A stretch of 64,000 nucleotides of DNA from assembly GCF_017352095.1 (NCBI RefSeq), contig NZ_CP071463.1:1550001-1614000 (forward strand), read 5' to 3'. Shown here in pieces: positions 18,257-39,753 of this stretch. The translations under genes and the position numbers were made by a program. The notes below the pieces were generated by a model. It was not told the DNA's origin and searched no databases. It was given only the letters and a program-made list of their open reading frames with translations. The DNA is from Natrinema longum. GTDB lineage: Archaea > Halobacteriota > Halobacteria > Halobacteriales > Natrialbaceae. The stretch's first letter is position 1. Each line of letters begins with the position of its first letter.

Positions 18257-21200
18257 TCACGACGAGTCGTCACCCCCCATCGTAACGGTCACTTCGTGGA
18301 CACCGCTGCAGACGAGCACGTCCGGCGGAAGCGTCGTCGGCGCGTCGCGGCCGGCCAGCGAGGTCTGTTCGCCGGCGACGTCGATCGTCGCACCGAGTTC
18401 GACCACGTCGGCGACGGCGTCGGTTCCGTCGACGATATCGTAGAGCGCGTCCGTCGACGGCGTCTGGCCGAACGACCACCCCTCGCCCCCGTTCCCGTCG
18501 AGCGGGTGGAGGTAATCGTCGATGCGTTCCTCGATGGCCCCCTTGAGCAGCGAGACGCTCGTACTGTCGGCCGTGTACACGGTGACGGAAACCGATACCG
18601 CCGCGTACTGCGGGCCGCGAACGACGATCCGGGACCCCTCGGATTCGACCAGCGAGACGGGCGCGCGTTCGCGCAACGCGTCGCGGACGCGGTGTTTGAG
18701 TTCCATCGACGGGACGGGTTTCTCCCGCCGGGCGTGGGGAACGATCAGGAGCGTGACGCCGCCAGCGTCCCCGTCACCACCCCCGTCGGGGGTACAGTTG
18801 ACTTTCGACAGTTCTCGGAACTCCGCGGTGGCGACCCGCTCGTAGTCCGACGGAGTGACCGCACGGCCCCGGTGTTTGAGCTGCCCCGTGGTGCGTGCCA
18901 CGAGGGCGTCCATGGACTCGGCGTCGGCACCGCCGTCGGCCGGTTTCGGATTCGAGACGTCCTCGACGAGTGAAATCGAACTCTTCAGGTCCGTGATCGT
19001 GTCGGCTGCAACGTTGCCGTCGCGGCCGCCCCCGGTCGTGTACGTCACCATGATATTTCCCTGCCCGGACGGCGGGATCCGCCCGCGGTTTCCGTCGCCG
19101 AAGCTGACGGTGCCGTCGAGCCTGTCGACGACGTAGTGGCGATCCGACGGCTCCGACTCCAGAAAGTCAGCGACCTGCTGCCAGCGGACCCAACACTCCG
19201 TCACGTCGCCACCCGCGTCGGTGACGCGCCGAACGTCGTCGGGGCGTTCGGTCAGAAGCTCGCGCCGTTGGCCGGTCGACAGCGTCGCGGACTCCTCGAC
19301 CCACAGGTCGAGATCGATGACCGGCGCGTGCGCACAGTCGAAGGATTGGTCGTGCGAGCCGTCGCTCGAGCCCAGGACTTCGTCTTCGATCGTCCGGGTG
19401 TTGTAGGCCCACTGCGTGTTGGGATACAGCCCCTCGAGCGTCGGCGGGGCCGTCGTCCGTTCGCGTTGCCGGTCGACGTCCGCACTCGACCGTCCCGACC
19501 CCGAGCGGCGGTCGAACTCGTCTTGGGTGACGCGGGCCCGGATCCAGTGACACTGCCGCCCGAAGCGGTCGAACGCGGTCGTCGGCTCGGGGAGGGTGAG
19601 CCTGACGATCCCCCGTTCGGTCAATCCGCCGGTCCGATCCTGAACGGTGAGTTTCGACCACTCGTCGGCCGCCGGATCCTCGCAGTACTCCCAGCGCATG
19701 CCGGGATCGAACGAGCGGGGGTAGGTGACGTCCTCGATCGGAACGAAGAACGTGAGCGGACCATCGCGAAGCGGCTCGTCGAAGCCGAGATACAGCGTCT
19801 GGGTCTCGTCCGAAAGCTCCTCGAAGGGGGTCAACGCCCCCTCCCGTTTGGCGAGGTCGTCGCTGATGGAGCCGTTGTTCTTCGTCCGGATCCGCTCGAA
19901 CGGTTGCCGCCCGCGGTCGTACTGGATCGAGACGTCGCCGAACCGCGGCGGGTCCGGCGAGTCGACGAGCGATCCCCGCGTTCCGGCGTCGGTGACGCCG
20001 AACGACGGCTGGCCGTAGTTCCCGCTGACCAGCCGGACGCGGATCCAGACGTTTTCGTGACCGGACACCGACGTCGGTTCGATGTCCTCGGGGACGGTAA
20101 AGCGAACGTGGCCGGCGCTTCGCAACGCGTTCGTCTCGTCCTCGAGGACGGTCAGCCGGCTCCAGCCGCTGCCGGTCCAGTACTCCCAGGAAAGCGTCGG
20201 CGGACCGTCGAGCACCCCGACGCCAGCGGCCGGTGACGCGTCCGTCTCGTCGTCCCCTGCGCCGATATCGACCCCGTCGATGGCGTCGGCGTCGGTCACG
20301 TCCTCGAGATCGTCACCGTCCGGATCCGCATCGGGCCCGGCAGGCGGATCGAACCGTACCTCGACGACGCCACCTCGCTTCGTAAAGGCCTCCTCGGAGG
20401 CGACGTAGAACGTCGACGGCGGCTGTGGCAGCCTTCCCAGCGGCCGGATATCTCCCTCGTCCGTCGAGAGCGGCACGTCGTTCGACAGCAGGGAATCGGG
20501 CGTGAGTCCGCCATCACGCGTGTCCCGACCGACGCTGGCCGAGATCGATCGCAGCCGCAGGGAGAACGCCGCGGGATCGGGATCGTCGTCGGCGATCCGA
20601 CATCGCAGCCAGCGGCTTTCGACGCCGTCGACGGCGTGTTGGACGGTCTTTCCGGGGAGTCGAAACTCCCGCTCGATCCGGCCGTCGTCGGTCGAGCGCC
20701 CGGACGAACCCGACTGAAGCCGCTCCTGAAGCGCATCGAGCCCTGGGTCGTCGTCGGCCGACTCGTCGTCGGTCCGCTCCTCGAGTGGATACCATCCCTC
20801 CGTGTCGTCGTCCTCGCCGTAGTACTCCCAGACGAGGTCGGTCTCCGGGAGCGGGCTATCGGGCGTCGTCTCGGCCGTGATCGTGATCGGCGATCCGGCC
20901 TCGAGATTGAGGAGATCGTCGTGGGCCAGATAGAGGACGTGCTCCTGGACGTTCTCGCCGGTCAACAGTTCGACCGGTTCGGCCGCGGTTCGGACGGGAC
21001 CGTGATCGACGATTCGATCGTCGGCGGGATCGACCGCGATCGCGTCCGTCAGCGACGCGCCGGTCGCCTCGAAGCCCTCGTCCTGTGGAATCTCGAAGAT
21101 CCGTGTGGCTCCGTCGCCCGGTTCCGCCACCGCCTGCGTCCCGCCGGGGATCGCGACGTTGCGATCGATATCGGTCGACACCTCGAACGTCAGCGGGAGC

Positions 21201-21445
21201 CGTGCGGCCTGTGGCGGTCGCCTGTCGAACCCGAGGGCGTCGAGGAACGCGATCCGGTGTTTCGCGGGCACGTCGTTTAGCCGTCGGATGACGTCCGCAC
21301 CGAGTTGTGAAAAGATCCGCAGGAGAACGGTGGCGTTGTCGTCAGTCCCCGGATCCCACGAGTCGGTATACTGATCCGCGAGTCGCTGTAACTCCGCGTA
21401 AAGCGCCTCCTGATCCCTGTCGTCGACGATCGGCTGCCCGCTCAT
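18257..21445 (-). CDS. CIS baseplate wedge, baseplate J-like (large)
   Basis: 1,062 residues. The N-terminus (YAELQRLADQYTDSWDPGTD, then LLRIFSQLGADVIRRLNDVP) and the core YVVDRLDGTVSFGDGNRG, IMVTYTTGGGRDGNVA and AVTPSDYERVATAEFREL mark a second baseplate-J protein. It is paralogous in the C-terminal half to the 654-residue wedge (DYLHPLDGNGGEGWSFGQ). The N-terminal half is enlarged by several beta-rich modules with repeated 'LSWEYWTGSGW' and 'MRWEYCEDPAADEW' units. The start overlaps the gp25 stop by 4 bp (ATGA), indicating coupled translation. Together with gp25 it would form the gp6/gp7-like wedge. Confidence 0.88.
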   Translation of the reverse strand: MSGQPIVDDRDQEALYAELQRLADQYTDSWDPGTDDNATVLLRIFSQLGADVIRRLNDVPAKHRIAFLDALGFDRRPPQAARLPLTFEVSTDIDRNVAIPGGTQAVAEPGDGATRIFEIPQDEGFEATGASLTDAIAVDPADDRIVDHGPVRTAAEPVELLTGENVQEHVLYLAHDDLLNLEAGSPITITAETTPDSPLPETDLVWEYYGEDDDTEGWYPLEERTDDESADDDPGLDALQERLQSGSSGRSTDDGRIEREFRLPGKTVQHAVDGVESRWLRCRIADDDPDPAAFSLRLRSISASVGRDTRDGGLTPDSLLSNDVPLSTDEGDIRPLGRLPQPPSTFYVASEEAFTKRGGVVEVRFDPPAGPDADPDGDDLEDVTDADAIDGVDIGAGDDETDASPAAGVGVLDGPPTLSWEYWTGSGWSRLTVLEDETNALRSAGHVRFTVPEDIEPTSVSGHENVWIRVRLVSGNYGQPSFGVTDAGTRGSLVDSPDPPRFGDVSIQYDRGRQPFERIRTKNNGSISDDLAKREGALTPFEELSDETQTLYLGFDEPLRDGPLTFFVPIEDVTYPRSFDPGMRWEYCEDPAADEWSKLTVQDRTGGLTERGIVRLTLPEPTTAFDRFGRQCHWIRARVTQDEFDRRSGSGRSSADVDRQRERTTAPPTLEGLYPNTQWAYNTRTIEDEVLGSSDGSHDQSFDCAHAPVIDLDLWVEESATLSTGQRRELLTERPDDVRRVTDAGGDVTECWVRWQQVADFLESEPSDRHYVVDRLDGTVSFGDGNRGRIPPSGQGNIMVTYTTGGGRDGNVAADTITDLKSSISLVEDVSNPKPADGGADAESMDALVARTTGQLKHRGRAVTPSDYERVATAEFRELSKVNCTPDGGGDGDAGGVTLLIVPHARREKPVPSMELKHRVRDALRERAPVSLVESEGSRIVVRGPQYAAVSVSVTVYTADSTSVSLLKGAIEERIDDYLHPLDGNGGEGWSFGQTPSTDALYDIVDGTDAVADVVELGATIDVAGEQTSLAGRDAPTTLPPDVLVCSGVHEVTVTMGGDDSS

Positions 21446-21840
21446 CCATCACCCTCCGTAATGTAGAACGGGTACACCATGTTCGAGAGGCTGTTGGTCG
21501 TCCGAACCTGGTACTCGATTTCGATGAGGACCTTGTTCGGGTTCTCGTCGTCCGTTCTGGCGGTGACGTCCTCGACGTCGATTCTGGGCTCCCACTGGAC
21601 GAGCGCCTCACGAACGCTACTCTCGAGTAAGTTCAGCGTCGCCGGCGTCGCCGCCGAAAACACGTGGTCGTGGATCTCGCAGCCGAACTCCGGGCGCATG
21701 ACTCGTTCGCCCTTTGCAGTCCCGAGAATGAGCCGGATCGACTCCCGAATGTCGTCCTCGGCGTCGGCCGTTCGAACCGATCCTCGAGCATCCGTCTCGA
21801 CGGGGAACGCCCATCCCGTTCCGAGGAACTCGTCGGACAT
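21442..21840 (-). CDS. CIS baseplate gp25-like wedge protein
   Basis: 132 residues of the GPW/gp25 family, the conserved wedge subunit that nucleates sheath assembly. Family features are the N-terminal GTGWAFPV, DDIRESIRLILGTAKGERVM, RPEFGCEIHDHVF, and REALVQWEPRIDVEDVTAR. Length is normal. It lies 3 bp after the PAAR gene and overlaps the large wedge gene by 4 bp. Confidence 0.93.
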   Translation of the reverse strand: MSDEFLGTGWAFPVETDARGSVRTADAEDDIRESIRLILGTAKGERVMRPEFGCEIHDHVFSAATPATLNLLESSVREALVQWEPRIDVEDVTARTDDENPNKVLIEIEYQVRTTNSLSNMVYPFYITEGDG

Positions 21841-21843
21841 GGG

Positions 21844-22134
21844 TTAGCCGATCATCACCGTCGGACACCCGCTGACGATCGTGTTCGGCGGGCCGCTCTC
21901 GACGATCGTATCGCCCAGCCTCGCAGCGGGCATCTTGTTGATCAACACGCTCGTACTCCCCTTGGTGACGACGCCGCCGACGTGAGGGACCGGGCCGGTG
22001 GTGAGCGGACACGTATGCACGTCCGCGAGCGCTCGCCACGCGGGTCGCTTCCCGATCAGGACGTTCGGACTCGAGGTCCCGGTCAGCGGCGTCCCGTGTG
22101 CCGTCTGGTCGCCGAGTCTCGCTGCAGGTTGCAT
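21844..22134 (-). CDS. CIS spike tip, PAAR-domain protein
   Basis: 96 residues, PAAR-like. The motif PAARLGDQTAHGTPLTG opens the protein and recurs as MPAARLGDTIVESGPPN. GKRPAWRALADVHTCPL, PHVGGVVTKGSTSVLINK and SGCPTVMIG complete the repeat pattern. Histidines and cysteines (H13, H40, C42, H50, C90 region) could coordinate the tip metal. It caps the spike and sharpens the tip that pierces the target. It lies 11 bp downstream of the gp5-like spike gene. Confidence 0.92.
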   Translation of the reverse strand: MQPAARLGDQTAHGTPLTGTSSPNVLIGKRPAWRALADVHTCPLTTGPVPHVGGVVTKGSTSVLINKMPAARLGDTIVESGPPNTIVSGCPTVMIG

Positions 22135-22145
22135 CTCTCTGTACC

Positions 22146-22880
22146 TTAATTCAAGGTGATTAAACTGCCTTTAACTTTTACCATTCCCGTCCCGTCGACG
22201 GTGACCATCGATCCGGACAGCGAGAGTTTCGCCTTGCTGTCGACGGTGACCGGCCCCTTGCCCTCGAGCGTGACTCCCTTCTTGCCGGCGATCTTCACCG
22301 AGTTACCATCGAGGGAGATCGTCGACGCCGAGAGTTCGATCTCGGACTTCGCGTCGATCGCGACCGTCCCGCCGGCGGAATCGAGCGTGATGCTGTTGTC
22401 GTTCGCGTCGTCGCGGATCCTGATCGTCTCCGAACTCCCCGAGTCGTCGATCACGATCTCGTTGCCACCGGTCGTCCGAATCGTAATGCTGCCGTCGTCG
22501 GCGTCGTCGAACGCGATCACGTGATCGCTCCGGGATCGAACCTCTCGAACGTCGTTGTTCCCGTTGCCGTTCTGCCGCGGCGGTTTCTGTTTCCCGTTCC
22601 ACAGCGAGCCGATGACGAACGGCTTGTGAATGTCGCCGTTCTCGAACGCGACCAGCACTTCGTCGTCGATCTCCGGCAGGAAGTACGTACCATACTCCGC
22701 CCCCGCCATCTCGGTCGCGATCCGAGCCCAGTGGCTCTCGTCGTCGGCATCCCGCCACGGGAACCGGAGTTTTACACGCCCGAGATCCTTCGGATCCTCG
22801 TTATCGGTGACGATACCGACGGCGACGCCATCGATACCGCCGTCGTCCGCACCGTCGTCGATGAAGCCGGCGGGGTTCAC
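22146..22880 (-). CDS. CIS spike, gp5/VgrG C-terminal-like
   Basis: 244 residues. Residues ~15-95 form the OB-fold of phage baseplate protein V/gp5: GIVTDNEDPKDLGRVKLRFP, IDDEVLVAFENGDIHKP and VIGSLWNG. From residue ~115 to the end short beta-strand repeats (SITIRTTGGNEIVID, VAIDAKSEIELSAST, KLSLSGSMVTVDGTG) build a triple-stranded beta-helix needle. It carries no lysozyme domain. In Afp/Pvc systems hub and spike are one protein; here the gp27 part is a separate gene with which it overlaps by 4 bp. Confidence 0.92.
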   Translation of the reverse strand: MNPAGFIDDGADDGGIDGVAVGIVTDNEDPKDLGRVKLRFPWRDADDESHWARIATEMAGAEYGTYFLPEIDDEVLVAFENGDIHKPFVIGSLWNGKQKPPRQNGNGNNDVREVRSRSDHVIAFDDADDGSITIRTTGGNEIVIDDSGSSETIRIRDDANDNSITLDSAGGTVAIDAKSEIELSASTISLDGNSVKIAGKKGVTLEGKGPVTVDSKAKLSLSGSMVTVDGTGMVKVKGSLITLN

Positions 22881-23905
22881 GTCGACACCTCCGTTACCTC
22901 GAAGGAGGTTCGGTAGCCGGCACTCCCCATCCGGTGGGTCGCTTCGGTCACGTAGTAGTCCCCCGAGAAACGACCGCCGAGTTCCTCGAGTGTAACGACG
23001 CTCCCGGCCCTGATGGCCGGCGTTCCGTCGGCTTCACCGTGACCGGTGACGACGCCGTCGGAGAATCGGTTCAGCTTCGTTTCGGCGACCCGTTCCGCTT
23101 CGTCCCGTGACATGGCTTGTACTCTGAAAACCTCCTTGTGTTTCGCGGTCGTGCTGCCGGCAGTGGCGACGATCTCGGATTTGTTCTGTTCGTCCCAGCT
23201 TCGGACTTCCATCTGGTCGACCTGCTCTCGGCGCGTGATCTCCGCGTAGAAGTCGTGAAGCGCCTCGCCGTACCATAGTTCGGCGACCGGCCCCTCACCG
23301 TCACCTTTCGCGGAGCGCGGTCGAAACCGGACGATGTCCCGTTCGGCGTAGAACTCGAACCCGTAGGTCTCGGCCACCCCCTGAACGAACCGGTAGTCGC
23401 TTTGGTTGTCCTGGATCAGTTTCTCGCGTTTGATCGACGCATCGGAGACGTCGACGGTCGAAAACGGGTACGACGACAGCACGTCTTCGACCGCGGTCCC
23501 GACCGTCGTCTCCGACCACGAGTCCGACCGGGTCCCCTGCATGAGCTCCCAGAGCAGTCCGTAGCCGGAGACGGTGACCGACGGCCCCCGATCGGTCGTG
23601 AACTCGGCGTTGATCGATCGGATCGACCCCGTCAAAAGCGGCGTCAGCGTCCCGTCGCCGCCGTACCCCATCGCGATCTCGACGTCCGTCCCGACCGCGA
23701 AATCGTCCCAGGTCAACCCGCTGAACTCGCCGAGTTCCTCGTCGAAGGGGAAGTTCAGCGTGAACGAGAACCGGTCCGCACCGTCGAGGGTGGTCTCGAC
23801 GACGAGATCCGCGATCCGGCCGCCGGGCTCCTGGAACTTCGCGTCGCCGACGTCGACCTTGAACCGCGGCGAGTACCGCGGCTGGATGTTCGTTCCGGTG
23901 CTCAT
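22877..23905 (-). CDS. CIS hub, gp27/late-control-D-like
   Basis: 342 residues, start at 23905 (MSTGTNIQPRYSPRFK). The much longer open frame to 24508 is overlap with the LysM gene. It matches phage late control D/gp27 hub proteins: RFSFTLNFPFDEELGEFSG, LTPLLTGSIRSINAEFTTD, DNQSDYRFVQGVAETYGFEF and RVAETKLNRFSDGVVTGHGE, ending RFSGDYYVTEATHRMGSAGY. It forms the trimeric hub linking tube to spike. Four-base overlaps with both neighbours (23902-23905 and 22877-22880) show tight translational coupling. Confidence 0.9.
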   Translation of the reverse strand: MSTGTNIQPRYSPRFKVDVGDAKFQEPGGRIADLVVETTLDGADRFSFTLNFPFDEELGEFSGLTWDDFAVGTDVEIAMGYGGDGTLTPLLTGSIRSINAEFTTDRGPSVTVSGYGLLWELMQGTRSDSWSETTVGTAVEDVLSSYPFSTVDVSDASIKREKLIQDNQSDYRFVQGVAETYGFEFYAERDIVRFRPRSAKGDGEGPVAELWYGEALHDFYAEITRREQVDQMEVRSWDEQNKSEIVATAGSTTAKHKEVFRVQAMSRDEAERVAETKLNRFSDGVVTGHGEADGTPAIRAGSVVTLEELGGRFSGDYYVTEATHRMGSAGYRTSFEVTEVST

Positions 23906-24579
23906 GACTGCAGTGGCGGCAACTCGAGTTTGTCGCCCGCGTCGATCGCGCGGGGGTCTTCGACGTCGTTGTGGTCCGCGATGGTCCGCCAGTGTGCGGA
24001 ATCGCCGTACTCCTCGGCGGCGATCAGCCAGAGGGTATCGCCGTCGGTGACCGTCCAGACTTTCGTCTTGTCCGTCGACTCGGGGGAGACCTCCGACTTG
24101 TGGTAGTCGGCCGTCTTGTACTCCTTGAACACGACGTTCACCCGGGCACGGACGGGAATGCCACTCGGCAGGAACTTCGTGAACTGCTTGTTCGCCCGCT
24201 GGAGCAACGCGGTAAAGTCGATCCCGTCGCCCCAGACGAACCGACACACCGGCGGCGCGTGTAGCTCTCCGTCGACGGAGAGGAGCGTATCGATGTGTTT
24301 GGTGTATCGTTCGCGGACGTCGACTTTCGACGGATCGGGCGACCCCTTCGAGTCGAGTTGGTCGGAGGTGTCGAAAAACAGCTCCATCGACAGCGTCTCC
24401 GCGTTCCCGTCGACGAACTGCATGATCGACGCCCCCGAGCCGGTGGCTTTCAGTTCGCCGTAGTTGACGCTTTTCTCGAGCGTGTAGGCGTTCGGGTTGA
24501 ACTTGCACTCGATGGTGTCGCCCTTCTGTTTCCCGTTCAAAATCATGATCTGGGCTTTCTCGAGTTTGCCGCCGCTCAT
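23902..24579 (-). CDS. CIS LysM-domain tube/baseplate connector (Afp7-like)
   Basis: 225 residues. The N-terminal ~165 residues (CKFNPNAYTLEKSVNYG, MELFFDTSDQLDSKG, PPVCRFVWGDGIDFTALLQR) match the CIS tube-initiation proteins. A C-terminal LysM domain follows (WTVTDGDTLWLIAAEEYGD to DAGDKLELPPLQ), as in Afp7 and T4 gp53-like proteins. It joins the inner tube to the hub. It starts directly after the stop of the giant disordered gene. Confidence 0.9.
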   Translation of the reverse strand: MSGGKLEKAQIMILNGKQKGDTIECKFNPNAYTLEKSVNYGELKATGSGASIMQFVDGNAETLSMELFFDTSDQLDSKGSPDPSKVDVRERYTKHIDTLLSVDGELHAPPVCRFVWGDGIDFTALLQRANKQFTKFLPSGIPVRARVNVVFKEYKTADYHKSEVSPESTDKTKVWTVTDGDTLWLIAAEEYGDSAHWRTIADHNDVEDPRAIDAGDKLELPPLQS

Positions 24580-27500
24580 CTACAGTCCCCTCCGTTCGCG
24601 TTCGATCCGGATCTTCCGCTCGAGTTTGCGATAGAGTTCCTGGACGGCCCGGTCGACGTCGGCGTCGAAGCGCGGGTCCGTCCGCGAGGAAACGTCGACG
24701 CCATCGAAGCGGTTCCCCCGGTGAGAGTCCGACTCTGGGGCGTGTCGGGTGGAGCGGCCCGACGGTCGACCGGACGGTCCGCCCGACGACGGCTGTGGAT
24801 TTCTCGGCTGCGGACGCCCCGCATCGCGACCGGCCGACGGCCCGTGCTGTGGCGGTCTCGTCTCCGGCCCGATGCCCGACCCCGAGCCGGCCTGCAGACG
24901 GTCGTCGCTCTCGGCCACCCGGTCGGCTGGTGGGCGGCGTTGCTCTCGAGACGTGCCCGCCGAGTCGGTCGTCGGGCCCGGCGACGTTGCGTTCGATCGA
25001 TTCGGTCCGCCCTGATCGACGGTCGGAGCGACCGTCGACGTCGTCCGGTACGTCAACGATGGACGCCCCGACGCGGTACTCGTTTGCATCCCGTTCACAC
25101 CCGTGTTGGATTCTGTTGATTCAATAGTATTAGTTGTTGGTTTATGCTGCTGACTCACGGTCGATATCGGCGACTGCTGCCGGGACGACTCCCCCGGCGT
25201 CTCCGGTGTCGGTTCCGGCTGGTCCGCTCGCGTCGGGACCGCGAGCGAGGGCCCAGCCGTCCGATCCCGACCGCGCTCGGTTGGGGCCGCCGATCGAGTC
25301 ACTGGGGGATCCGCCGGTGACTGCCCTCGCGAACGGAGACGGGACTGGAGCCGTTGCCCGCCGCTAACGGCCGCGTTTGCGCTCGAGGACCGGAGCGAAG
25401 GCGTTACGATCGAATCCGCCCCATCGGAGCCGACGGGGCCGTCACCGTCGTCGAGCGCATCCACGGTCGCCGCGATACGGCCTCGACGCGAGCCGACGGG
25501 ATCGATCGACGGCTGCCCACCAGTCGCCGACCGCCCGTCGACCCGCTCCGTCGACGATCCCGACCGAACGGCGATCGTCGGCGGTTGGATTGGGCGCTGA
25601 TCCGAACGAACGCCGGTCCGTTCGAAGGACGGGGCGGTATCGGCCCGCCGATCGATCCCCGCCGCCGATCGGGGCTCGGTCGCAGCAGGGCCCGCGGAGC
25701 GAGCCACGCTCGAGCGGTCCGTCCATCGCGGCCGATTCGTCGTCGCCCCCAGCGATCCGACCGTCCCGGTCGCGTCCGGGTTCCCCGTCGCGGTCGTGTC
25801 GGATCCGGCCATCGTCGCCTCCGATCCGACGGGTGTAGGTGGGGCCGGACCTCGAGCGGATTCGACCCTCGACGACCCGAACGGGGTACTAGTACCGTTC
25901 CAGCCGTCGACCGAAGGGTCGGATCCGGCGGCGTAATCCGAGTCGGCCCGATAGTGCAGGCGTGGACTGCCACTAGCGCTTCCCTGACTCGTCGAGAGAC
26001 GGTGGATCGTGATCGACTCCGACGTGGGACGCGAATTGGCGGCCATCGATCGAGCGGCTCGATTCCGCCGGCGATCCCCGGCGGACCGGCCCGGTCGCTG
26101 CCGGTCCGTCGTACTCGCAGCCCCCACGGAGCCACTGAGACCGTTCCGCCGTGATCCTCGGCGAGCGGGGCCGATCGGCGGCGTCTCGTCTCGCGCCGGA
26201 ATCGACTCCGACCCGATCGAGTCAGTCACCGCCGACGACCGATACTGGCGAGCCGTCCGGCGGGACCCGTCCGCTCCGGCTCCGGAGGCGGCCGATCCCG
26301 AGCGAGCCGTCCGGCGGCGAGCGGCCGTGGCTCGGGCCAGCGATTCGGCGGCAGTCGACGACACCACCGGCGGTGCCATCGCGTTCGGCGTCGCCCGGCC
26401 GGCCTCGTCGCGACCGGTCGGAAGGCCACCGCGGTCGGCTCGCGGTCTCGAGGGAGGCGACGCGACCGAACTCGACCCCGAAGGCCGATCAGCTATCGGT
26501 CGTGATACCATCGAGGCCGAATTCGAATCGCCCGTCGAGGGAGCCCCCGGTTCGGATCGCAGTGACCGGTCGTCGTGTGTCGGCGGGCGGGTCGTCCCCG
26601 GTCGCTCCCGTTCCATCCACGACGGACGGTCTCTCCGGGTCGTCGCGTCGGTCGGACGGGAGCGCGATCGGCGGGGCTCGGAACGTCGCTCCCGACGCCG
26701 CCGCTCCCCGCTCGCTTCGCGCCCGCGACTCGAGGCTGGAAATTCCGAGGACCGTCGGATCGGTTTCGATCCGGTCGCCGTGGTCGCCAGGGTCGACCGG
26801 TCGGGCGACGAACGTTCGGTCACCGTCCTGCGCACCGACAGTCGGGTGGCCGACTCGAGCGCGTTCGGTCCGGATCGATCGCGGCGTGGTGCCCCCTGGC
26901 CGACGCCGCGTCGCGTTGCGGGCTCGAGGTCCCCGAGTCGACGAGAACGTGACGGGGCGTCGGCCTCGATCGCCGACGGGGAGCCGCGACCGAGCGCCGA
27001 GACCGGGTGAGCGGTCGTGGATCCGCGACGACTCCCCACCGACGGGGGTGTGGTAACGGTGGGAGCCGGCGATCCGCCCGCCGCGGTCGTCCGGCGACGA
27101 TCAAAAGCGCGGACGCCGGTCGGACCGTCGGCCGATCCTAGTCGAGACGCGACGTCGGGCGCGTCCGCACGTGCGTCGAGTCCATCCGGGGTCACGCTGT
27201 CGCGCCGCGACGATCGGGTCGATCTCACGTCCCCTCCGGAACGCGCTCCGGTCTCGAGACCTCGTCGCGAGCGCCGGCTCCGTCCCAAGCGTCGGTCCGT
27301 CGGTCGCGACGGCCACAGCGCCGGCTGCGGCCGGGTTTCCGGTCGGGCGGAGGAGACGTTCGTTCCGACGGGGTTCCTCTCCGCGCCGACAGTTCCCGAT
27401 AGCCGTCGATTCGCGTCGGCGGCCGGCGGCTCGCCCGCCGACTGGGAGTCGACGGCGGCGGCCAGCGACCGAATTCGGGTCGAGCGAGCCGATTCGACCG

Positions 27501-30156
27501 TGTGTCGCTCCGGCGTGCTGTTCGGTTCCGGTCGGCCCACGGACCGTCCAGTGGGACCGCCGCTCTCGGGTCGAGAGCGCGGCCGGAACGGTGGGCCATC
27601 GGACCGCGTCGGCGATAGCCCACGCGAGCGAACCGACCGGCCGGACGGCGTCGGGTCTCCTCCGTTCGACGGCGCGACCGTCGCCGCAGACGACCGACGC
27701 CGAACGACGAACGCCGGCTCACGACCGTCCGAGCGCCCGTGGCTGCCGGACTGTCTCGACTGTCCGTCGCCGAACGGGACGGTGCTGGAACCGCCCTCAC
27801 CGCCACGATGGCCGCGAGAGCGTCCGTGGTCAGTCGACCGGCTGCTCGAGAACGAACGGATAGCCGACCCCGCCGGCTCGACCGACCCGGACGGCGTCAC
27901 GCCGGTCCCGACTGCAGCCGACTCGTCGCCGACCGCGCGGGGAGGTGACTCGAACGGCGACGGCGTTCCGGATGGGGGCCGTTCGACCGTCGCACCGCGC
28001 TGTGAACGAGGGCCTCGAGTGCCAGCGATGGGGCCCGAATCGGAGCCGTCCCGACGGCCGATCGTCGGCGGCCGATCGCCGGGCTCGTCTGCGTCACCAG
28101 CAGGCGTCGGCAGTCGCAGCGACGCTGTCGGCTGCGAGGGGGTCGTCTGGGGACCCCTCCGCTGTGAGAGGGGCGACGGTGACACCGTCACGGGGGGGAT
28201 CGACAGCAACGAGTGGGACGGCGGCTGGTCGCCGGCCACCGCTCCGTCCCGGTCCGACGCGTGGGACACTCGAGGTGCGATCGACGAGGAGTCGCTCCGC
28301 GAGGCCGCTGGCGGCCCCTCGATTGCGGGCGAGGCGGTCGGTGCCAGCACCGATCGTCGCGGAACCCGATCGGTGACCGTGGTGAGCGGCAGTCGTCGGC
28401 GGCGGCCGATCGACTCGACCAGGGGCGATCGGATCGGGCTGGATCGACCGGACGCACGATCGAAGCCGGTGCTCCCGTCGGTGTGGTCGTCGATTTCGTC
28501 GCCGTCTCCGAGTTCGACTGAGCGGTGCCGCGGTGTCGGCACGTGCGGGCGGTCGTCGATGTGAGCGGCGGACGGGTCGGTCTCTCGACCGCCGTAGCCG
28601 GTTCGGCGCGACCGATCCGTCCGCTCGCGCCCGGCGCGAGCGGCGACCACGTCCCGCGTGGGAGCGGCCGTCTGCCCGTTCATCCCGTCGACTCGCCGAG
28701 CGTTTGCATACTGCATCGTCGTGCCGTCGTGTGAGTCGACGGCCGCGTGTCGCGTCCGTCCGCCCTCGTGGGTGTGGGCCATTCCCCGTGAAGTCGATGT
28801 CCGCGTGTGCCGATCGATCGGGTCCGGTTCTCGGCCCCTGACCCCGATCGGCCGGACGGCGGGATCGCTCGGAGTCGCTCGTCGGTCGACGTCGCCGCCC
28901 GAAGTCGCCACGCTCGAGTGTGCCCCCGCGTTCGTGGTTGTGTCCCCGGTTCGCCGGGACGACGAGATGGCGGAGGAGCCGTCGTCGTGACCGGTCCCGA
29001 CACCGGTCTCCGTGGGACCCCCGTTGCGATTCGCCTGCACACCGCGAGTGGACGAGACGCGTGCCATCTGCCGGGTTCGAGGATCGCTCGGCGATGCGAA
29101 CCGACCGTCCGAACCGGGGTGCTCGACCGGCTGCCCCGACGGTTGTGCCACGGTCTCCGATGATTCGGATTCCGGCCCCCAAGTCCCCGCGGTGGGTGAC
29201 CCACTCCGGGTGACGAGCGTCGGCAGGGGTCGCCCTCGAGTGCGGGGCCGATTCGGTCGGGACGCCACCGAGCCGGCCGACGTGGTCCGATCGACCGACC
29301 GTTCCGAGACGAGCAGCGACGGCGTCTCGCGTTCGAGCGGATCGTCGACGCCGGAGGGCGACACACTCGAAGCCCCCGACTCGAGCGCCGACGCGCGATC
29401 CGTGACGGCACCGGTCGTCACCGCACCAATCGGGGCCGCGCTGGCGCGTCGCTGGAGACGGCCCAGCCGGCCCGTACTGCTCGATCCGGATCGCTCGGGT
29501 GATCGCCGTGCGGGCGTCCGCCAGGCCCGCCCCGTCCCGACGGCTGCTCGATCGACAGCCGTCGGATCGAGCTCCCTCCGTCGCCGAGTTTCATCGGAGC
29601 CGTGGGGCGTCTCGCCTCCTCGTGAAGACGCCGCTTGGCCGTGGGTGGTCGGTTCCTCGAGCGCCGACGACTGCGACCGGTCGGGACGACTCGGCACGAC
29701 CGATCGAACCCCACGGGCCGTCATCGACCCCCGTTCCGTCGACGGCCGGGTGGCCGATCCGTTCGCCGTCGCGAACGATCGAGCGACCGGTCCGGTCCGA
29801 TCCGAACGACCGGGTTTCGTGCGGTAGGTAAACGCATCGTCGTGATCCGTCGACCGATCGAACGTCGGCGGAGAAACCCCAGGCTCGTCGGTCGCCTCGT
29901 CGTCGAGAGGAGCGTCGAAGGACGAGAGAAACGAGAGCTGGACCGGGCTCCGTCTCCGCGCGATCCGGACGCCGAGTCCACCGACCAGTCGGTCGGGAGT
30001 CAGCGTCGCGATCGCCGTGACGCTGGGCTGGAGGCGAGCAACCGTCGACGGGCCACTCGAGTCGATCCCCATCGACGACTCGGCTGCCGCCCGGTGGGTC
30101 ACGCCGATCTCCCGTACCGACGGCTCGCGATCGAGGTCGGTAGACTCCCCGATCAC
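24580..30156 (-). CDS. Giant disordered basic Ser/Arg/Thr-rich CIS-operon protein
   Basis: An uninterrupted 1,858-codon frame between the membrane protein and LysM genes, same strand. Almost the whole chain is low complexity: Ser, Arg, Thr, Gly, Pro and Asp dominate, with many RS/SR and RR pairs, and almost no hydrophobic runs. It looks net basic, unlike the acidic haloarchaeal norm. Two segments look foldable: residues ~35-80 (VGGLGVRIARRRSPVQLSFL) and a C-terminal amphipathic helix ending ELYRKLERKIRIERERRGL. I do not recognise a family. By position it may be a tape-measure-like ruler, a tube-lumen filling or cargo, or a LysM/hub-binding linker. Stops interrupt the opposite strand, so this strand is real. 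ATG at 30072 is an alternative start. Confidence 0.72.
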   Translation of the reverse strand: MIGESTDLDREPSVREIGVTHRAAAESSMGIDSSGPSTVARLQPSVTAIATLTPDRLVGGLGVRIARRRSPVQLSFLSSFDAPLDDEATDEPGVSPPTFDRSTDHDDAFTYRTKPGRSDRTGPVARSFATANGSATRPSTERGSMTARGVRSVVPSRPDRSQSSALEEPTTHGQAASSRGGETPHGSDETRRRRELDPTAVDRAAVGTGRAWRTPARRSPERSGSSSTGRLGRLQRRASAAPIGAVTTGAVTDRASALESGASSVSPSGVDDPLERETPSLLVSERSVDRTTSAGSVASRPNRPRTRGRPLPTLVTRSGSPTAGTWGPESESSETVAQPSGQPVEHPGSDGRFASPSDPRTRQMARVSSTRGVQANRNGGPTETGVGTGHDDGSSAISSSRRTGDTTTNAGAHSSVATSGGDVDRRATPSDPAVRPIGVRGREPDPIDRHTRTSTSRGMAHTHEGGRTRHAAVDSHDGTTMQYANARRVDGMNGQTAAPTRDVVAARAGRERTDRSRRTGYGGRETDPSAAHIDDRPHVPTPRHRSVELGDGDEIDDHTDGSTGFDRASGRSSPIRSPLVESIGRRRRLPLTTVTDRVPRRSVLAPTASPAIEGPPAASRSDSSSIAPRVSHASDRDGAVAGDQPPSHSLLSIPPVTVSPSPLSQRRGPQTTPSQPTASLRLPTPAGDADEPGDRPPTIGRRDGSDSGPIAGTRGPRSQRGATVERPPSGTPSPFESPPRAVGDESAAVGTGVTPSGSVEPAGSAIRSFSSSRSTDHGRSRGHRGGEGGSSTVPFGDGQSRQSGSHGRSDGREPAFVVRRRSSAATVAPSNGGDPTPSGRSVRSRGLSPTRSDGPPFRPRSRPESGGPTGRSVGRPEPNSTPERHTVESARSTRIRSLAAAVDSQSAGEPPAADANRRLSGTVGAERNPVGTNVSSARPETRPQPALWPSRPTDRRLGRSRRSRRGLETGARSGGDVRSTRSSRRDSVTPDGLDARADAPDVASRLGSADGPTGVRAFDRRRTTAAGGSPAPTVTTPPSVGSRRGSTTAHPVSALGRGSPSAIEADAPSRSRRLGDLEPATRRGVGQGAPRRDRSGPNALESATRLSVRRTVTERSSPDRSTLATTATGSKPIRRSSEFPASSRGREASGERRRRERRSEPRRSRSRPTDATTRRDRPSWMERERPGTTRPPTHDDRSLRSEPGAPSTGDSNSASMVSRPIADRPSGSSSVASPPSRPRADRGGLPTGRDEAGRATPNAMAPPVVSSTAAESLARATAARRRTARSGSAASGAGADGSRRTARQYRSSAVTDSIGSESIPARDETPPIGPARRGSRRNGLSGSVGAASTTDRQRPGRSAGDRRRNRAARSMAANSRPTSESITIHRLSTSQGSASGSPRLHYRADSDYAAGSDPSVDGWNGTSTPFGSSRVESARGPAPPTPVGSEATMAGSDTTATGNPDATGTVGSLGATTNRPRWTDRSSVARSAGPAATEPRSAAGIDRRADTAPSFERTGVRSDQRPIQPPTIAVRSGSSTERVDGRSATGGQPSIDPVGSRRGRIAATVDALDDGDGPVGSDGADSIVTPSLRSSSANAAVSGGQRLQSRLRSRGQSPADPPVTRSAAPTERGRDRTAGPSLAVPTRADQPEPTPETPGESSRQQSPISTVSQQHKPTTNTIESTESNTGVNGMQTSTASGRPSLTYRTTSTVAPTVDQGGPNRSNATSPGPTTDSAGTSREQRRPPADRVAESDDRLQAGSGSGIGPETRPPQHGPSAGRDAGRPQPRNPQPSSGGPSGRPSGRSTRHAPESDSHRGNRFDGVDVSSRTDPRFDADVDRAVQELYRKLERKIRIERERRGL

Positions 30157-30344: not shown

Positions 30345-31472
30345 CTACTCCTGTGGCGTCGGCTCGGCACCGATCCCGATCGTCGATCGGGTCCCGGCAC
30401 GGACCGAGTCGCGATCGAGGGCGTCGCTGCTCCCCTGCAGGACGAACTGGTCGCCGGTCCGCGTGTAGACGATCGGGTGCTCACCACCCTGTTTGAGCGT
30501 GTACCCAAGCGGGAGCTCCATCGCCGCCTCGTTGGACTCGAGTAGGAACGTGGCTGGGAGTTCGAAGCTACAGCGCTCGCCGGGCTCGAGCGTGACGCCG
30601 ACGTCGAACTGATAGAGGTCGTGTTTCGTATCACGGATCTTCGCCTGCGTCAGTTCAACGGGGGTAATGCCGGTGTTTTTGATCATCAGTTCGCGGCCGT
30701 CCCGTGACTCCAACCTCGAGACCGCCACGATTCGGAGGTCCGTCCGGTCGCTGATCGTGGACTCGTAGCGGTTGTAGACGAGCACCGTCGCGATCAGCCA
30801 CAGGACTGCCGCGAGGACGACCGTCTGGAGTTGGGTGAGCGTTCCATCGAACCACGGCAGCCACGAAACGAGTGCACGGATCCCGACGCTCGCGAGGACC
30901 GCGCCGACGAAGCCGACGATTCCAGCAAGCGTGCGGGTCTGGAGATGTTTGACCTGCGCGTAACCGGTTCTGATGAGTACCGACCGCAACGCGGACGGAG
31001 AGTCGTCCGGATCCGGTTCCCGACGCTGGCGGAGCGTGAGGACGGTCGCGACCGGCCACGCGATCAGCGACCCGGCGAGAACGGACACCGGGGAAACGAC
31101 CCCCACGAGGGTCGCGATACCGAGTCCGGTCGCGACGAGTAGGCCACAGACCGCGCCCGCGATCGTCGCCTGTGCCCAGATCGACAGCTGATCCCACTGA
31201 TCGGCGATCGCATCCTTGTACTGGAGATACAGCAGACGGACGCCGATCACGACGACTGCGAGGACGAACACCGCGATCAACAGGACGACTCGTGGGGAAA
31301 GTACCCAGTCCGTGACGGGAACGGTCGACTCCGGGACGTAGTCGACGAGCCCCGTCACGACGGCTACGGCAGTCACGACTACCGCGAAAATCAGTGCCGC
31401 GGCCAGCGGCCGCAAGACCGGCGAGAGTTTCTTTTTGACGGTCTTCGTCGCCTTCGACGCGACGCGCCTCAT
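30345..31472 (-). CDS. Six-helix membrane protein in CIS operon
   Basis: 375 residues. A basic N-terminus (KATKTVKKK) precedes about six hydrophobic helices (~18-43, 58-85, 98-125, 129-147, 182-205, 213-234). A soluble beta-rich C-terminal domain of ~140 residues follows (RDGRELMIKNTGITPVEL, LEPGERCSFELPATF, GDQFVLQGSSDAL). No family recognised. Its place between tube 2 and the giant protein suggests a membrane anchor for CIS particles, as CisA does in Streptomyces; a hydrophobic tape measure is the other reading. Its ATG overlaps the stop of a 35-codon ORF. Confidence 0.75.
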   Translation of the reverse strand: MRRVASKATKTVKKKLSPVLRPLAAALIFAVVVTAVAVVTGLVDYVPESTVPVTDWVLSPRVVLLIAVFVLAVVVIGVRLLYLQYKDAIADQWDQLSIWAQATIAGAVCGLLVATGLGIATLVGVVSPVSVLAGSLIAWPVATVLTLRQRREPDPDDSPSALRSVLIRTGYAQVKHLQTRTLAGIVGFVGAVLASVGIRALVSWLPWFDGTLTQLQTVVLAAVLWLIATVLVYNRYESTISDRTDLRIVAVSRLESRDGRELMIKNTGITPVELTQAKIRDTKHDLYQFDVGVTLEPGERCSFELPATFLLESNEAAMELPLGYTLKQGGEHPIVYTRTGDQFVLQGSSDALDRDSVRAGTRSTIGIGAEPTPQE

Positions 31473-31667: not shown

Positions 31668-32126
31668 TTACTCCGGCATCCCGGACATCTTGGAGAACCG
31701 CTCGTATGCCAACTCGATCGACTCGATCGCCATGCCTCGTTCGTTGCTGACCAGGTCCGGACCGGACCATTTCGTCGGATACGCGTTCACGAATTCCCAC
31801 CCCCACTGACTCTCGCCTTTGAAACTGTCTTTTACTTTGACGACGATGTTCTTCCGAGAGATGGTGCCGCTCATGACCGTCTGGATCCACTCCCAGAAGG
31901 TCGTGTTTTTGGTCAGGCCCCGCTGGAGGACGAGATTCGCGTGAGCGAACTGGCCGGGTAACTGATGGACGTGATCGTTGACGCCCCCCTCGCGGTACTG
32001 GACGGTGTCGAGTTCCATCGTGATTCCGGCGACTTCGGCGAACCCGGCGACGGTCTCGCCGTCTACCTCGACCTCGAAATTGTACTGTGCGTACGGATCG
32101 TTTTCGTGCGTATATGTCGTCATCAT
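31668..32126 (-). CDS. CIS inner-tube protein 2 (Afp5-like)
   Basis: 152 residues of the phage tail-region/T4 gp19-like tube family (TIGR02241 type). Characteristic segments are YNFEVEVDGETVAGFAEVAG, TVQYREGGVNDHVHQLPG, NLVLQRGLTKNTTFWEWIQ, and FVNAYPTKWSGPDL. It is a paralogue of the 152-residue tube protein at 33.1-33.6 kb. In Afp the second tube type forms the first ring on the hub, which is probably its role here. Adjacent ATGs at 32126 and 32123 are both usable. Confidence 0.92.
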   Translation of the reverse strand: MMTTYTHENDPYAQYNFEVEVDGETVAGFAEVAGITMELDTVQYREGGVNDHVHQLPGQFAHANLVLQRGLTKNTTFWEWIQTVMSGTISRKNIVVKVKDSFKGESQWGWEFVNAYPTKWSGPDLVSNERGMAIESIELAYERFSKMSGMPE

Positions 32127-32171: not shown

Positions 32172-32420
32172 TTACTCGGAATCCGGCGGTTGCCGGAGCA
32201 CGATACCTCCACCCGCGCCGTCGCGGTCGCGTCCGCGTCGGCCACGGCGGCCACGGGACTGGTCGGACGGCGAGTCGGACATGCGATCGTTGATCGTGCT
32301 GATCTCCTCACACCAGCGCTGGCGTTCCCAGTGGGGCATGTTCAATACCGTATCGTGGCTCCACCCGAAGTGGTAGGCCACGAACGCGACCTCCTCGTAG
32401 AGGCGGTCCGGTTCGTACAG
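32172..32420 (-). CDS. DUF6760-like small CIS protein, start codon uncertain
   Basis: About 82 residues. The core PDRLYEEVAFVAYHFGWSHD then LPHWERQRW-like NMPHWERQRWCEEISTIND matches the small DUF6760-type proteins seen in CIS loci. A basic Arg/Gly-rich tail follows. The conserved N-terminus has no ATG, GTG or TTG in frame: the frame opens after a TGA, and the first usable codon where homologues begin is CTG at 32420. A GTG at 32381 would drop about 13 conserved residues. It starts just after the gp26-like stop codon. The family probably helps tail assembly. Confidence 0.7.
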   Translation of the reverse strand: MYEPDRLYEEVAFVAYHFGWSHDTVLNMPHWERQRWCEEISTINDRMSDSPSDQSRGRRGRRGRDRDGAGGGIVLRQPPDSE

Positions 32421-32425: not shown

Positions 32426-32977
32426 CTACTCCGCTGGATTTCCCGACTCCGATCCCTCACCGTCGTTCGGTTCGGTACCGGCTGCACGCATGTCGGCGGA
32501 TTCGAATCCCGACGATTCCGTCCCACCGAGTTCGCCGATGTCGCCGCCGACACCGGCGTCCATGGCGGCGGCATTCATCGCACCGTTCGGTCCGTCGGTC
32601 GTCACGTGCGTGCCGCTCTCGGCGTCGATCTCGAAGACCTCGCCACAGTCCGGACAGGCCGTCTCGACGGCGTTCATCCCCTGGTTGTTGACCCGCTCGT
32701 ATAGCGCCTGCAGGTACTCGAGGTCCGTGACGAACAGCTCCTCGATGACGGTCGCGTCGATCGTCTCGAGGTCGCCGAGTTCGGTCACGACCCGCGAGAG
32801 CAAGACGATCGTCAGGTACGAGGAGTTCGTCTGGACGCGAGGATTCTGCAGGGGCTCGATTTCGTCGGCCGCGGTCGCGAGGCGCATTCGACCCTCCTTG
32901 TGGAGGGTGCCGTCGTCGTCGACGTATCCCTGTGGAAGGGTGAACTCGAACTCGGTCTGGAGCGTCTCCCCGGTCAT
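32426..32977 (-). CDS. T4 gp26-like tail assembly/baseplate protein
   Basis: 183 residues. The helical core NSSYLTIVLLSRVVTELGDL, IEELFVTDLEYLQALYERVN and a CPDCG knuckle match the T4 baseplate (gp26-like)/tail assembly proteins that follow tube genes in CIS and phage loci. The first 40 residues form a beta segment (TEFEFTLPQGYVDDDGTLH). The C-terminal ~60 residues are acidic and Gly/Ser/Ala-rich. Its ATG overlaps the stop of the 54-residue ORF. Confidence 0.8.
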   Translation of the reverse strand: MTGETLQTEFEFTLPQGYVDDDGTLHKEGRMRLATAADEIEPLQNPRVQTNSSYLTIVLLSRVVTELGDLETIDATVIEELFVTDLEYLQALYERVNNQGMNAVETACPDCGEVFEIDAESGTHVTTDGPNGAMNAAAMDAGVGGDIGELGGTESSGFESADMRAAGTEPNDGEGSESGNPAE

Positions 32978-33138
32978 GGTCGAGTCCCCCCACCGTCACA
33001 GGCGACGACGACGCGGTTGGCGAAGGGTGCCGAGTCGCCGGTATGGAGGACACCCTCGTCGTCGACGCGCCACTCGGCATCGAACCGATGGCGCGGGACG
33101 GTGAACGCCTCCGGAGACGAGTTCGACGGTCGTGTCAT
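32974..33138 (-). CDS. 54-residue CIS-operon protein of unknown function
   Basis: ATG at 33138 overlaps the tube-1 stop (ATGA), and the TGA at 32974-32976 overlaps the ATG of the gp26-like gene. These two 4-bp overlaps make coding function likely. Residues 13-45 look folded (FTVPRHRFDAEWRVDDEGVL), with a charged N-terminus. The 'DDEGVLHTGD' segment resembles the 'DDDGTLHKEG' hairpin of the next protein, hinting at a related small fold. I cannot name a family. Confidence 0.6.
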   Translation of the reverse strand: MTRPSNSSPEAFTVPRHRFDAEWRVDDEGVLHTGDSAPFANRVVVACDGGGTRP

Positions 33139-33593
33139 ACGTTCTTCCGTTCCATCTCGTCGAACGTGATGACGTACTCCTCGGTGGCGAGGTTACCCTG
33201 GCCGCCGCCGCCGTGGGAGTTGAGCGTGGGTGGTCGGTATTCCTTGATCCACGCCTTCGTGAACTCGAATCGGAGGACCGAGTCACCGACCTCGTTCATG
33301 ACGATGACGGCGATGTTCTTCCGGCCACCGTCGTCCATCTTCCCTTCGTTGACGGATTTCCGCCAGTCGTAGAGTTCCTTGTTTTTCTCGTTGGCCCCAC
33401 GAACGAGGATGAGATCGTCGTACTGGGTGTCGCCCCAGAGCTTTCGGTTGTGCGACGGATCGTTGCCTTCGCGGTATTCGACCTGTTCGGTTCGCATCGC
33501 TGGCAGTTCGATCTCGACGAAGCCGGGAATGCCGACGCCGTCGAGTTCGACCTTGAATTCGGTTTGTCGGAGTGGTCCGTGTGAGTCTGGCAT
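33135..33593 (-). CDS. CIS inner-tube protein 1 (Afp1-like)
   Basis: 152 residues, T4 gp19/TIGR02241 tube family: TEFKVELDGVGIPGFVEIE, EQVEYREGNDPSHNRKLWG, LILVRGANEKNKELYDWRK, and FTKAWIKEYRPPTLNSHG. It directly follows the sheath gene (46-bp gap), the usual place of the major tube subunit, so it probably builds the rigid rod through which the spike is driven. Confidence 0.93.
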   Translation of the reverse strand: MPDSHGPLRQTEFKVELDGVGIPGFVEIELPAMRTEQVEYREGNDPSHNRKLWGDTQYDDLILVRGANEKNKELYDWRKSVNEGKMDDGGRKNIAVIVMNEVGDSVLRFEFTKAWIKEYRPPTLNSHGGGGQGNLATEEYVITFDEMERKNV

Positions 33594-35379: not shown

Positions 35380-35416
35380 TGATGTCGTTCCTCCAATCGC
35401 TGGTATAGCAGTACTG

Positions 35417-35424
35417 TATTTATA
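35417..35424 (-). promoter_or_regulatory. TATA box of the CIS sheath operon
   Basis: Minus-strand TATAAATA is centred 41-42 nt from the sheath ATG, giving a transcript start near 35394 and a ~15-nt leader that just contains the Shine-Dalgarno GGAGG at 35390-35394. A second AT-rich run (ttttatatca) lies 10 bp further upstream. Confidence 0.6.
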
Positions 35425-35658
35425 CACAAATGATATAAAACTTATTCCTCAGCCAGATCCGAAATCAACTAGAAATGGATATATTATTCGTCGTAGTAGG
35501 TTGGTTCTGTTTAGAACGGATCTAAATTGCGATCGAGTACGATCGAGACTGGATTAAAGCGATGATGTCGCACGCGAGCGACACCGATCGGAGACCGACC
35601 CGGTTACCGGAGGCGTTCGCTCGCGATCACGGGTGATACCCAGTCCTGGAAATAGACA

Positions 35659-35701: not shown

Positions 35702-36949
35702 ATGGCCCAGGACTCGGACCACAGTACGGGGGAGCGGGGCGATCTATCGCAGTTTCGGAAGAATCGGTTCTTCAGCGGGAAACTGATGACCCCCCGCGAT
35801 ATGGAAGCGGAACAGGAGTATCACGCCGAGCGATTGCACGCCCTTTCCCGGTTCGTGGTCGGGAGCGGAATCGTCCACGGCCTCGAGATTCGATCGATCG
35901 GCGAGACCGACGACGGGCTCGAGGTGACGATCGAACCGGGGTTGGCGCTGGACGGGCGTGGTCGCCCCATCGTCGTCGAGCAGGTGACGACGAAGTCGCT
36001 CCCACGTCCCTCGGCGAACGAACTATCGCTCTATATCGAGTACGAGGAGGTCTCGCTGGAAACCGTTCCCGTCCCAAACACGGACGATGCCATCGACGCG
36101 GAGTCGACGTCGAACCGGACCGTGGAGGTCTTCGAGCTGACGTATCGAGAGACGACCGAAGACGAGCGACCACAGCTGCCAGACGTCGAGATTCCGTCCG
36201 TCGGGAGCGACGGTCTCGACGCCGAAACCATATCCCGCCAGCTCCTCGAGCGGTATCACGACCAGCACCGGTCCGCGATGCCCTCCGAAACGGAGACGGC
36301 AGTCTTCCTGGGCTCGTTCGAACGGACGCCCGACGGTGCCTGGACGGAATCCACGGAGCCGGCTCCTCGGGAGTTCGCCTACGATCACGACCTGCTCTTC
36401 GCGACGATCATCGACCACGTCACCGACACCGACAATCCACATCGGACGCCGGTCGAACGGGAGCCCCCCGACATCCCGGACGGTATCGGGGAGATCACCG
36501 ATCGACTCGACGCCCTGGAGACCGAGCTGGGACGGGTCAAACGGGACCAGACCGCGCTCACCCAGTACGTCATGCGGAAGACGCTCAAGGACAGAGCCCG
36601 GTTCTTCGACGAGTTGGCCGATCGGGTAGCACAGCAGACACGCGAGGGGAGCCGGCTCGCCCGTGAAATCGCCACCGTCTCCCGTACGAACGGCGAGGAA
36701 ATCTGTGACAGCGAGGGCGCGTACCGCCGACACCTACGGGAGATCCTCGAGCACCTGATAGACCTCGGTGACCATCTCGAGGGAGCGACGACGGAAGCCA
36801 GCCTCGAGCGGTACCTCAAGTCCGTCTCCGACCTCCAGTCGGCACTCGAGAACGATGACCCCGTCCTCGAGTTGGCCGAGATCCAAGATCGGGTCTGTGA
36901 GGCTGCCGACTCGCTGGACGTGCTCGTCGACGTCGTTCCAAACGAGTAA
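35702..36949 (+). CDS. CIS-associated collar/fibre-like protein
   Basis: 415 residues. The N-terminus FRKNRFFSGKLMTPRDMEAE, QEYHAERLHALSRFVVG and SGIVHGLEI is the signature of proteins repeatedly found in bacterial CIS loci. It is followed by a beta-rich part (VTIEPGLALDGRGRPIVVEQ) to residue ~130. Residues ~250-410 are long charged helices, probably coiled coil, like a fibre or whisker. It is divergent from the sheath operon and convergent to the E2 gene. Function is inferred from context: attachment, collar or regulator of the particle. Confidence 0.72.
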   Translation: MAQDSDHSTGERGDLSQFRKNRFFSGKLMTPRDMEAEQEYHAERLHALSRFVVGSGIVHGLEIRSIGETDDGLEVTIEPGLALDGRGRPIVVEQVTTKSLPRPSANELSLYIEYEEVSLETVPVPNTDDAIDAESTSNRTVEVFELTYRETTEDERPQLPDVEIPSVGSDGLDAETISRQLLERYHDQHRSAMPSETETAVFLGSFERTPDGAWTESTEPAPREFAYDHDLLFATIIDHVTDTDNPHRTPVEREPPDIPDGIGEITDRLDALETELGRVKRDQTALTQYVMRKTLKDRARFFDELADRVAQQTREGSRLAREIATVSRTNGEEICDSEGAYRRHLREILEHLIDLGDHLEGATTEASLERYLKSVSDLQSALENDDPVLELAEIQDRVCEAADSLDVLVDVVPNE

Positions 36950-38758: not shown

Positions 38759-38759
38759 G

Positions 38760-39749: not shown

Positions 39750-39753
39750 GGTA

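Follow-up and report, generated by a model that had tools for sequence, protein, structure and literature searches.

How does a contractile injection system (CIS) plug the base of its needle and set the needle length when its operon holds no obvious gene for either task? This question is raised by the CIS operon of Natrinema longum and by one of its genes, here called X. The operon lies in a stretch of 64,000 nucleotides (contig NZ_CP071463.1, positions 1,550,001–1,614,000), in the following called the window, and X occupies positions 24580–30156 on the minus strand as a long open reading frame (ORF) beside tube and hub genes. It codes for a basic, Ser/Arg-rich protein of 1,858 aa which is predicted to be disordered. 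We suggest X as the best candidate for the part that is missing here, one that would close the base of the needle and determine its length, and we put the probability at about 0.5 that it is a structural part of the CIS which joins the jobs of the Cis6 plug and of the tape measure.

The CIS of H. borinquense (PMC11566945) as well as those of S. coelicolor and S. venezuelae (PMC10066040) are stated to have no typical tape measure, and the S. coelicolor particles are uniform in length with 61 sheath layers, though no tape measure gene was found (PMC12237407). Haloarchaeal CIS have been published as devoid of the Cis6 plug, too. The first-pass annotation of the window had described an operon without an obvious tape measure, and in agreement with this and with the literature our Pfam searches of 45 haloarchaeal CIS genomes and of four further genomes bearing X found neither CIS_TMP (PF19268) nor DUF5908 (PF19265). 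As a positive control, Aureibacter yielded both families, with a DUF5908 protein of 55 aa and a tape measure of ~3,840 aa, and in the same search DUF5908 was found in Azospirillum; the positive side of this contrast comprises few genomes. X is therefore found in genomes which lack CIS_TMP as well as DUF5908. The tape measure of Aureibacter tunicatorum is annotated on a plasmid (locus L086, 1–2425; 172180–183711 of the record) and would imply a very long tube, if length scales.

A fast-drifting gene with conserved ends

The ORF of X starts with GTG, comprises 1,858 codons, and its stop codon lies directly before the ATG of Cis7. It is a real protein-coding gene rather than an ORF that is open by chance. 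Among six pairs of close species from Natrinema, Haloferax, Natrialba, and Paenibacillus, 82 of 83 indels are a multiple of three (P ~4e-38), the reading frame is kept, and the substitutions are distributed nearly evenly over the codon positions (e.g., 8.2, 7.7, and 8.8%). In addition, both ends are conserved in frame. Between the window and a genome of the same species X has 79% amino acid identity, compared with 98–100% for Cis7, Cis8a, Cis5, and the membrane anchor. The sequence of X drifts very fast while its frame, composition, and ends stay maintained.

It could be argued that the ORF is spurious or decaying in high-GC DNA and that the real gene is a short C-terminal one. Indeed, Arg/Ser-rich off-frame ORFs are common in haloarchaeal DNA (e.g., 27017–28564 on the plus strand), and in H. 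larsenii only a C-terminal gene of 177 aa is annotated. We consider this explanation extremely improbable. A chance ORF can be dismissed because the indels keep the frame in 82 of 83 cases and the conservation at both ends is in frame, with an N-terminal segment conserved in the same frame; moreover, non-halophiles carry a long X as well. The H. larsenii record (locus L076, 1851–8819), which is known to have an incomplete gene table, annotates the last 177 residues of an ORF of ~2,300 codons together with hypothetical proteins on the opposite strand, and in S. clavuligerus (locus L210, 1234–5385) two small hypothetical coding sequences lie over an X ORF of 1,383 codons. Such seemingly wrong or truncated annotation in two records may be the reason why X was overlooked.

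The first-pass annotation had made its idea depend on conservation in other archaeal CIS loci. A search with Cis7 gave a match in 46 of 394 Halobacteria genomes (the window genome counted), and a long ORF ending directly upstream of Cis7 is present in all 45 fetched loci and in the window, so that X was found in all 46 haloarchaeal loci examined, as well as in many bacterial ones. The haloarchaeal X proteins have 381–2,365 aa: 1,340–2,365 aa where the gene of the membrane anchor was detected and mostly 381–625 aa in a divergent clade. Short ORFs of X, with about 390–600 codons, are present in Halogeometricum limi, H. pallidum, and Halogranum amylolyticum, and a long X of about 2,365 aa in Haloferax elongans. 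Even the close species of Natrinema differ by hundreds of residues (1,860–2,160). A strict link between the anchor gene and the length of X was considered and dropped, as five loci without a detected anchor have X proteins of 1,096–2,068 aa; some of these loci lie on incomplete stretches. The collection-wide search for Cis7 adds Bacillota, cyanobacteria, anaerobic methanotrophic archaea (ANME), Methanosarcina, Nitrospirota, Aminicenantes, and others, most of them with the same arrangement. Chloroflexota have an X of about 600–1,840 codons, and X proteins of 1,020 and ~1,380 aa are encoded on Streptomyces plasmids between DUF6760 and Cis5. Across the family, closed X ORFs range from 307 to 2,388 codons. 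Six Paenibacillus loci (L146, L147, L151, L158, L163, and L166), presumably of non-halophilic hosts, have X ORFs of ~1,430–2,060 codons and match the haloarchaeal lengths.

The most conserved part of X is its C-terminus, for which the first-pass annotation had suggested an amphipathic helix. In the window the predicted helix spans residues 1828–1856 (24589–24675, minus strand), the proposed dock to the spike and hub; AlphaFold2 models the final ~29 residues as a single confident helix (pLDDT ~89–97) and the 58 residues preceding it as coil. A distant X homologue of 409 codons was modelled with low confidence everywhere except for its C-terminal helices, which are less confident than the helix of the window X. 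The family signature [DN]xxRLxDxVYxxLERKxRIERERRG is at most a few residues away from the stop codon, and its last part, the helix YxxLERKxRIERERRG, is almost invariant. This tail is common to Streptomyces, Chloroflexota, Bacillota, cyanobacteria, ANME/Methanosarcina, and Nitrospirota. A hidden Markov model (HMM) built from non-haloarchaeal tails only recognized 46 out of the 49 haloarchaeal proteins at E<0.01, each time exactly at the C-terminal end; of 980 shuffled sequences it recognized none. A second conserved segment is found near the N-terminus (~residues 48–75, IATLTPDRLVGGLGVRIARRR...; 29932–30015, minus strand). The middle (~residues 110–1799; 24760–29829, minus strand) is of low complexity, fast evolving, and variable in length.

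Concerning the composition, the charge and disorder calculations proposed at first pass confirm a basic and disordered protein. X has a net charge of +75 (+4.0 per 100 aa) and a pI of 11.5, with 274 R, 272 S, 201 G, 192 A, 189 P, 175 T, and only 5 K next to 123 D and 81 E; R, S, G, A, P, and T make up 70% of the residues and order-promoting residues 13%. In a charge–hydropathy plot X falls on the disordered side of the boundary. The charge is unevenly distributed, from −1.5 to +11 per 100 aa across blocks of 200 aa. X thereby departs, as had been noticed, from the normally acidic haloarchaeal proteins: its CIS neighbours have mostly −4 to −16 charges per 100 aa, except for the nearly neutral membrane anchor. 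When compared with Cis7 of its own locus, X is the more basic protein in 42 of 45 haloarchaeal loci and in all 36 others. The maximum mean hydropathy over 19 residues is ~1.0–1.5 in the X proteins for which it was computed, i.e., there is no long hydrophobic stretch. Regularly spaced aromatic residues or repeats, which could be binding sites for the tube rings, were sought in the window X and not seen; a [LFV]TYR-like motif is enriched across the family, yet has few copies per protein. The window X has no match in Pfam and NCBIfam, and the sequence shared by the family none in Pfam, NCBIfam, and PDB. Searches of solved structures with X homologues, the profile of the C-terminal tail, short plug proteins, and the Streptomyces X gave no relevant match, and PHROGs gave for the window X weak matches of the tail to families of unknown function. 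X is a protein family for which we found no description.

A candidate plug and ruler

Which known CIS proteins does X resemble? Judged by sequence, X does not belong to the known plug or tape-measure families, as it matches neither CIS_TMP nor DUF5908. The plugs of AlgoCIS and of Anabaena are trimers which sit in the spike cavity that faces the lumen; that of AlgoCIS has a C-terminal helix and makes contact with Alg7 and Alg8, that of Anabaena has a flexible part which enters the tube lumen, and the lumens of CIS tubes are negatively charged (PMC8894135; PMC8894136). Similar to this Cis6/Alg6/Afp6 plug (DUF5908) of AlgoCIS and of the Anabaena tCIS, which is needed for assembly and whose flexible part can reach the tube lumen, X lies in the majority of loci in the slot flanked by Cis5 and Cis7 (the exception being Streptomyces with X upstream of Cis5) and has a predicted C-terminal amphipathic helix preceded by a flexible part. 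Unlike X with up to 2,365 aa, the short proteins in the plug slot have 55–71 aa and an N-terminal strand. Like Afp14 (CIS_TMP) and the tape measures of phages, X usually ranks with the largest ORFs in its operon, lies beside tube and hub genes, and has conserved ends and a middle of variable length; unlike them it is predicted to be disordered and is of low complexity instead of helical and has no long hydrophobic stretch. X is also reminiscent of Tme of Streptomyces davawensis, a DUF4157 effector related to tape measures, as both are large, mostly disordered, and CIS-encoded, and as some Chloroflexota X contain a DUF4157 domain. Tme differs in having an endonuclease C-terminus and transmembrane helices (PMC11126660); the haloarchaeal X have neither and end in a hub-type helix.

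These comparisons might give a hint how X works. The position of X beside the hub genes and the strong conservation of the C-terminal helix would fit docking at the hub. The helix might bind in the lumen-facing cavity of the spike and hub (Cis8 with Cis7 and Cis5) and thereby nucleate the tube initiator. As X would be anchored in the spike cavity by its C-terminus, its chain would run straight up the tube: flexible and mostly basic, it would extend along the negatively charged lumen as Cis1 and Cis2 polymerise around it, the conserved N-terminal segment would mark the far end, at which growth is stopped by the cap, and the length of the chain would set the length of the tube. The presence of X in the particle, its docking site, its occupancy of the lumen, and its control of length are what we infer here. 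More tentatively, and with somewhat less confidence than for X itself, it may be supposed that many bacterial and archaeal CIS measure their tube by a disordered, charge-complementary chain on a spike-plug helix instead of a helical tape measure. In such an extended polyelectrolyte ruler the sequence could drift almost freely, with length, composition, and end motifs kept. Should disordered chains be able to serve as rulers, simple changes in their length could tune how long the tube is and what its lumen contains. The X family is thus a concrete tape-measure candidate for CIS of the H. borinquense and Streptomyces type and a proposal for the missing plug of the haloarchaeal system, and its C-terminal motif is diagnostic for finding the gene.

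Is the chain long enough? For R. castenholzii we used as a proxy an X of 979 codons, which we take to be from Roseiflexus RS-1. With the extended length of 217 nm of the R. castenholzii CIS (PMC12998442) this corresponds to 0.22 nm per residue. In S. coelicolor ~62 tube layers of 3.85 nm give 239 nm and, with a proxy Streptomyces X of 1,020 aa, 0.23 nm per residue. For H. borinquense, whose contracted sheaths have a published mean length of 220 ± 16 nm with a rise of 1.709 nm, an extended length of ~496 nm is obtained if the extended rise equals that of S. coelicolor, and the median X of the clade with the anchor (1,574 aa) yields 0.31 nm per residue. The values of 0.22–0.31 nm per residue, which were obtained from the X of a congener or from a clade median and in no case from the measured strain and therefore are a feasibility check and not a correlation, lie above those of a helix (0.15) and below those of a fully stretched chain (0.36). 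At such values the tube could be spanned by a disordered chain that is extended in part.

Besides the proxy nature of this comparison, several points weigh against X as plug and ruler. Known tape measures are largely helical, and X is not predicted to be mainly helical or coiled-coil, its composition and the AlphaFold2 models pointing to disorder apart from the C-terminal helix. In a single hhalign comparison the X tail was aligned to short Cis6 proteins with a probability of 3.5% and an E-value of 0.012, which is not significant. The Chloroflexota X frequently are about neutral or acidic, some of them down to −5 per 100 aa, and no X was found in the slot in the CIS loci of Treponema, an Olavius symbiont (L117), and Cohnella (L144). 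For the N-terminal segments, with IATLDPxRLxGGFxxRI conserved in haloarchaea and FxxxIxxKY in bacteria, a relationship is no more than suggestive; the HMM of the bacterial N-terminus had no significant match in the haloarchaeal X (best E 8.4), with several weak matches at the expected place. The sheath lengths of H. borinquense are called heterogeneous. Finally, we found no report of X in particles: sheath preparations of H. borinquense contained only Cis2 and the secretome Cis1, Cis2, Cis7, and Cis8a plus DUF4157 proteins. The Arg-rich sequence and the truncated annotation may explain why we found X listed in no proteome; only 96 of the 246 tryptic peptides of the window X are within the usual range of 7–30 aa.

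A further point of this kind supports what we regard as the strongest rival, namely that X is a filling of the lumen or a cargo carrier tethered to the hub, with the helix at the spike and a chain which fills the tube, binds effectors, or is expelled upon firing, the tube length being set otherwise. The domain of secreted CIS effectors, eCIS_core (DUF4157), is embedded in the X of Roseiflexus RS-1 and of two other Chloroflexota with E-values of 1e-16, 4e-13, and 3e-12 (L212, 9652–12591; L224, 7547–13057; L222, 11435–13318). An effector with DUF4157 was co-purified with proteins of the spike and the initiator, and Tme is an example of a tape-measure-like CIS protein which is an effector (PMC11126660). 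The nearly unconstrained sequence of X and its length differences of hundreds of residues between close species could be read in the same sense. On the contrary, neither eCIS_core nor another convincing domain was found in 22 haloarchaeal, the window X likewise being devoid of eCIS_core, or in 34 other X scanned; in the window genome five eCIS_core genes stand on their own, far away from the CIS, and nearly every locus has X as a single gene within the structural operon, unlike the variable effectors. We therefore hold a mere filling or carrier to be rather unlikely; both ideas are compatible, because phage tape measures are also ejected. Less probable still is that X acts as an assembly factor outside the finished particle, with the helix assisting Cis7 and Cis8 in hub formation and the remainder solubilising or loosely scaffolding. 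It would agree with the missing reports of X in particles and with the conservation of only its short ends; on the other hand, a basic chain of 1,300–2,300 aa held in frame across phyla would be costly for a mere helper, and in most loci X takes the slot of a structural plug.

Two side observations concern the effector domain. The eCIS_core embedded in Chloroflexota X links a plug-like tail to the effector core domain, and the five eCIS_core (DUF4157) proteins of N. longum, likely CIS effectors, are encoded ~0.4–0.5 Mb from the CIS cluster (2009819–2074240 of its own genome).

The CIS cluster around X

On the minus strand the genes follow each other in the order Cis2, Cis1, 183-aa protein, DUF6760, Cis5, membrane protein, X, Cis7, Cis8a, Cis8b, Cis10, Cis9, Cis11a, Cis11b, and Cis12. 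The placement of X between tube and LysM genes given at first pass holds for the LysM side, where Cis7 (23902–24579), the tube initiator with a CIS_tube and a LysM domain, adjoins directly downstream. It does not hold for the tube side: the gene immediately upstream codes for a multi-transmembrane protein of 375 aa (30345–31472), a putative membrane anchor resembling the published Hbor_38620 (PMC11566945), followed by the inner-tube adaptor Cis5 (31668–32126), and the main tube gene Cis1 is farther away. Upstream of Cis5 are a DUF6760 protein (32172–32381), a protein of 183 aa without Pfam match (32426–32977), and the inner tube protein Cis1 (33135–33593), which scored 205.6 bits in NCBIfam at a cut-off of 220 and is above the cut-off of TIGR02241. 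The contractile sheath Cis2 (33640–35427) was assigned by position and sequence and has no NCBIfam match. Downstream of Cis7 are the GPD/gp27-like hub protein Cis8a (22877–23905), the gpV/VgrG-type spike part Cis8b (22146–22880), a Cis10-like PAAR protein (21844–22134) and a Cis9-like gp25 protein (21444–21841), both with approximate limits and assigned by sequence and synteny, the baseplate J proteins Cis11a (18257–21445) and Cis11b (16217–18181), and a baseplate protein of the Cis12 family (14009–16213). All of these genes are on the minus strand; a divergent Cis13-family protein is encoded upstream on the plus strand (35702–36949).

The whole cluster (14009–36949) sits, as if inserted, between the E2 and E3 (lipoamide dehydrogenase) genes of a 2-oxoacid dehydrogenase operon. 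The flanking dehydrogenase genes are at 12409–13887 and 37067–40920 of the window, with the E1 and lipoyl-synthase-like genes beyond E2.
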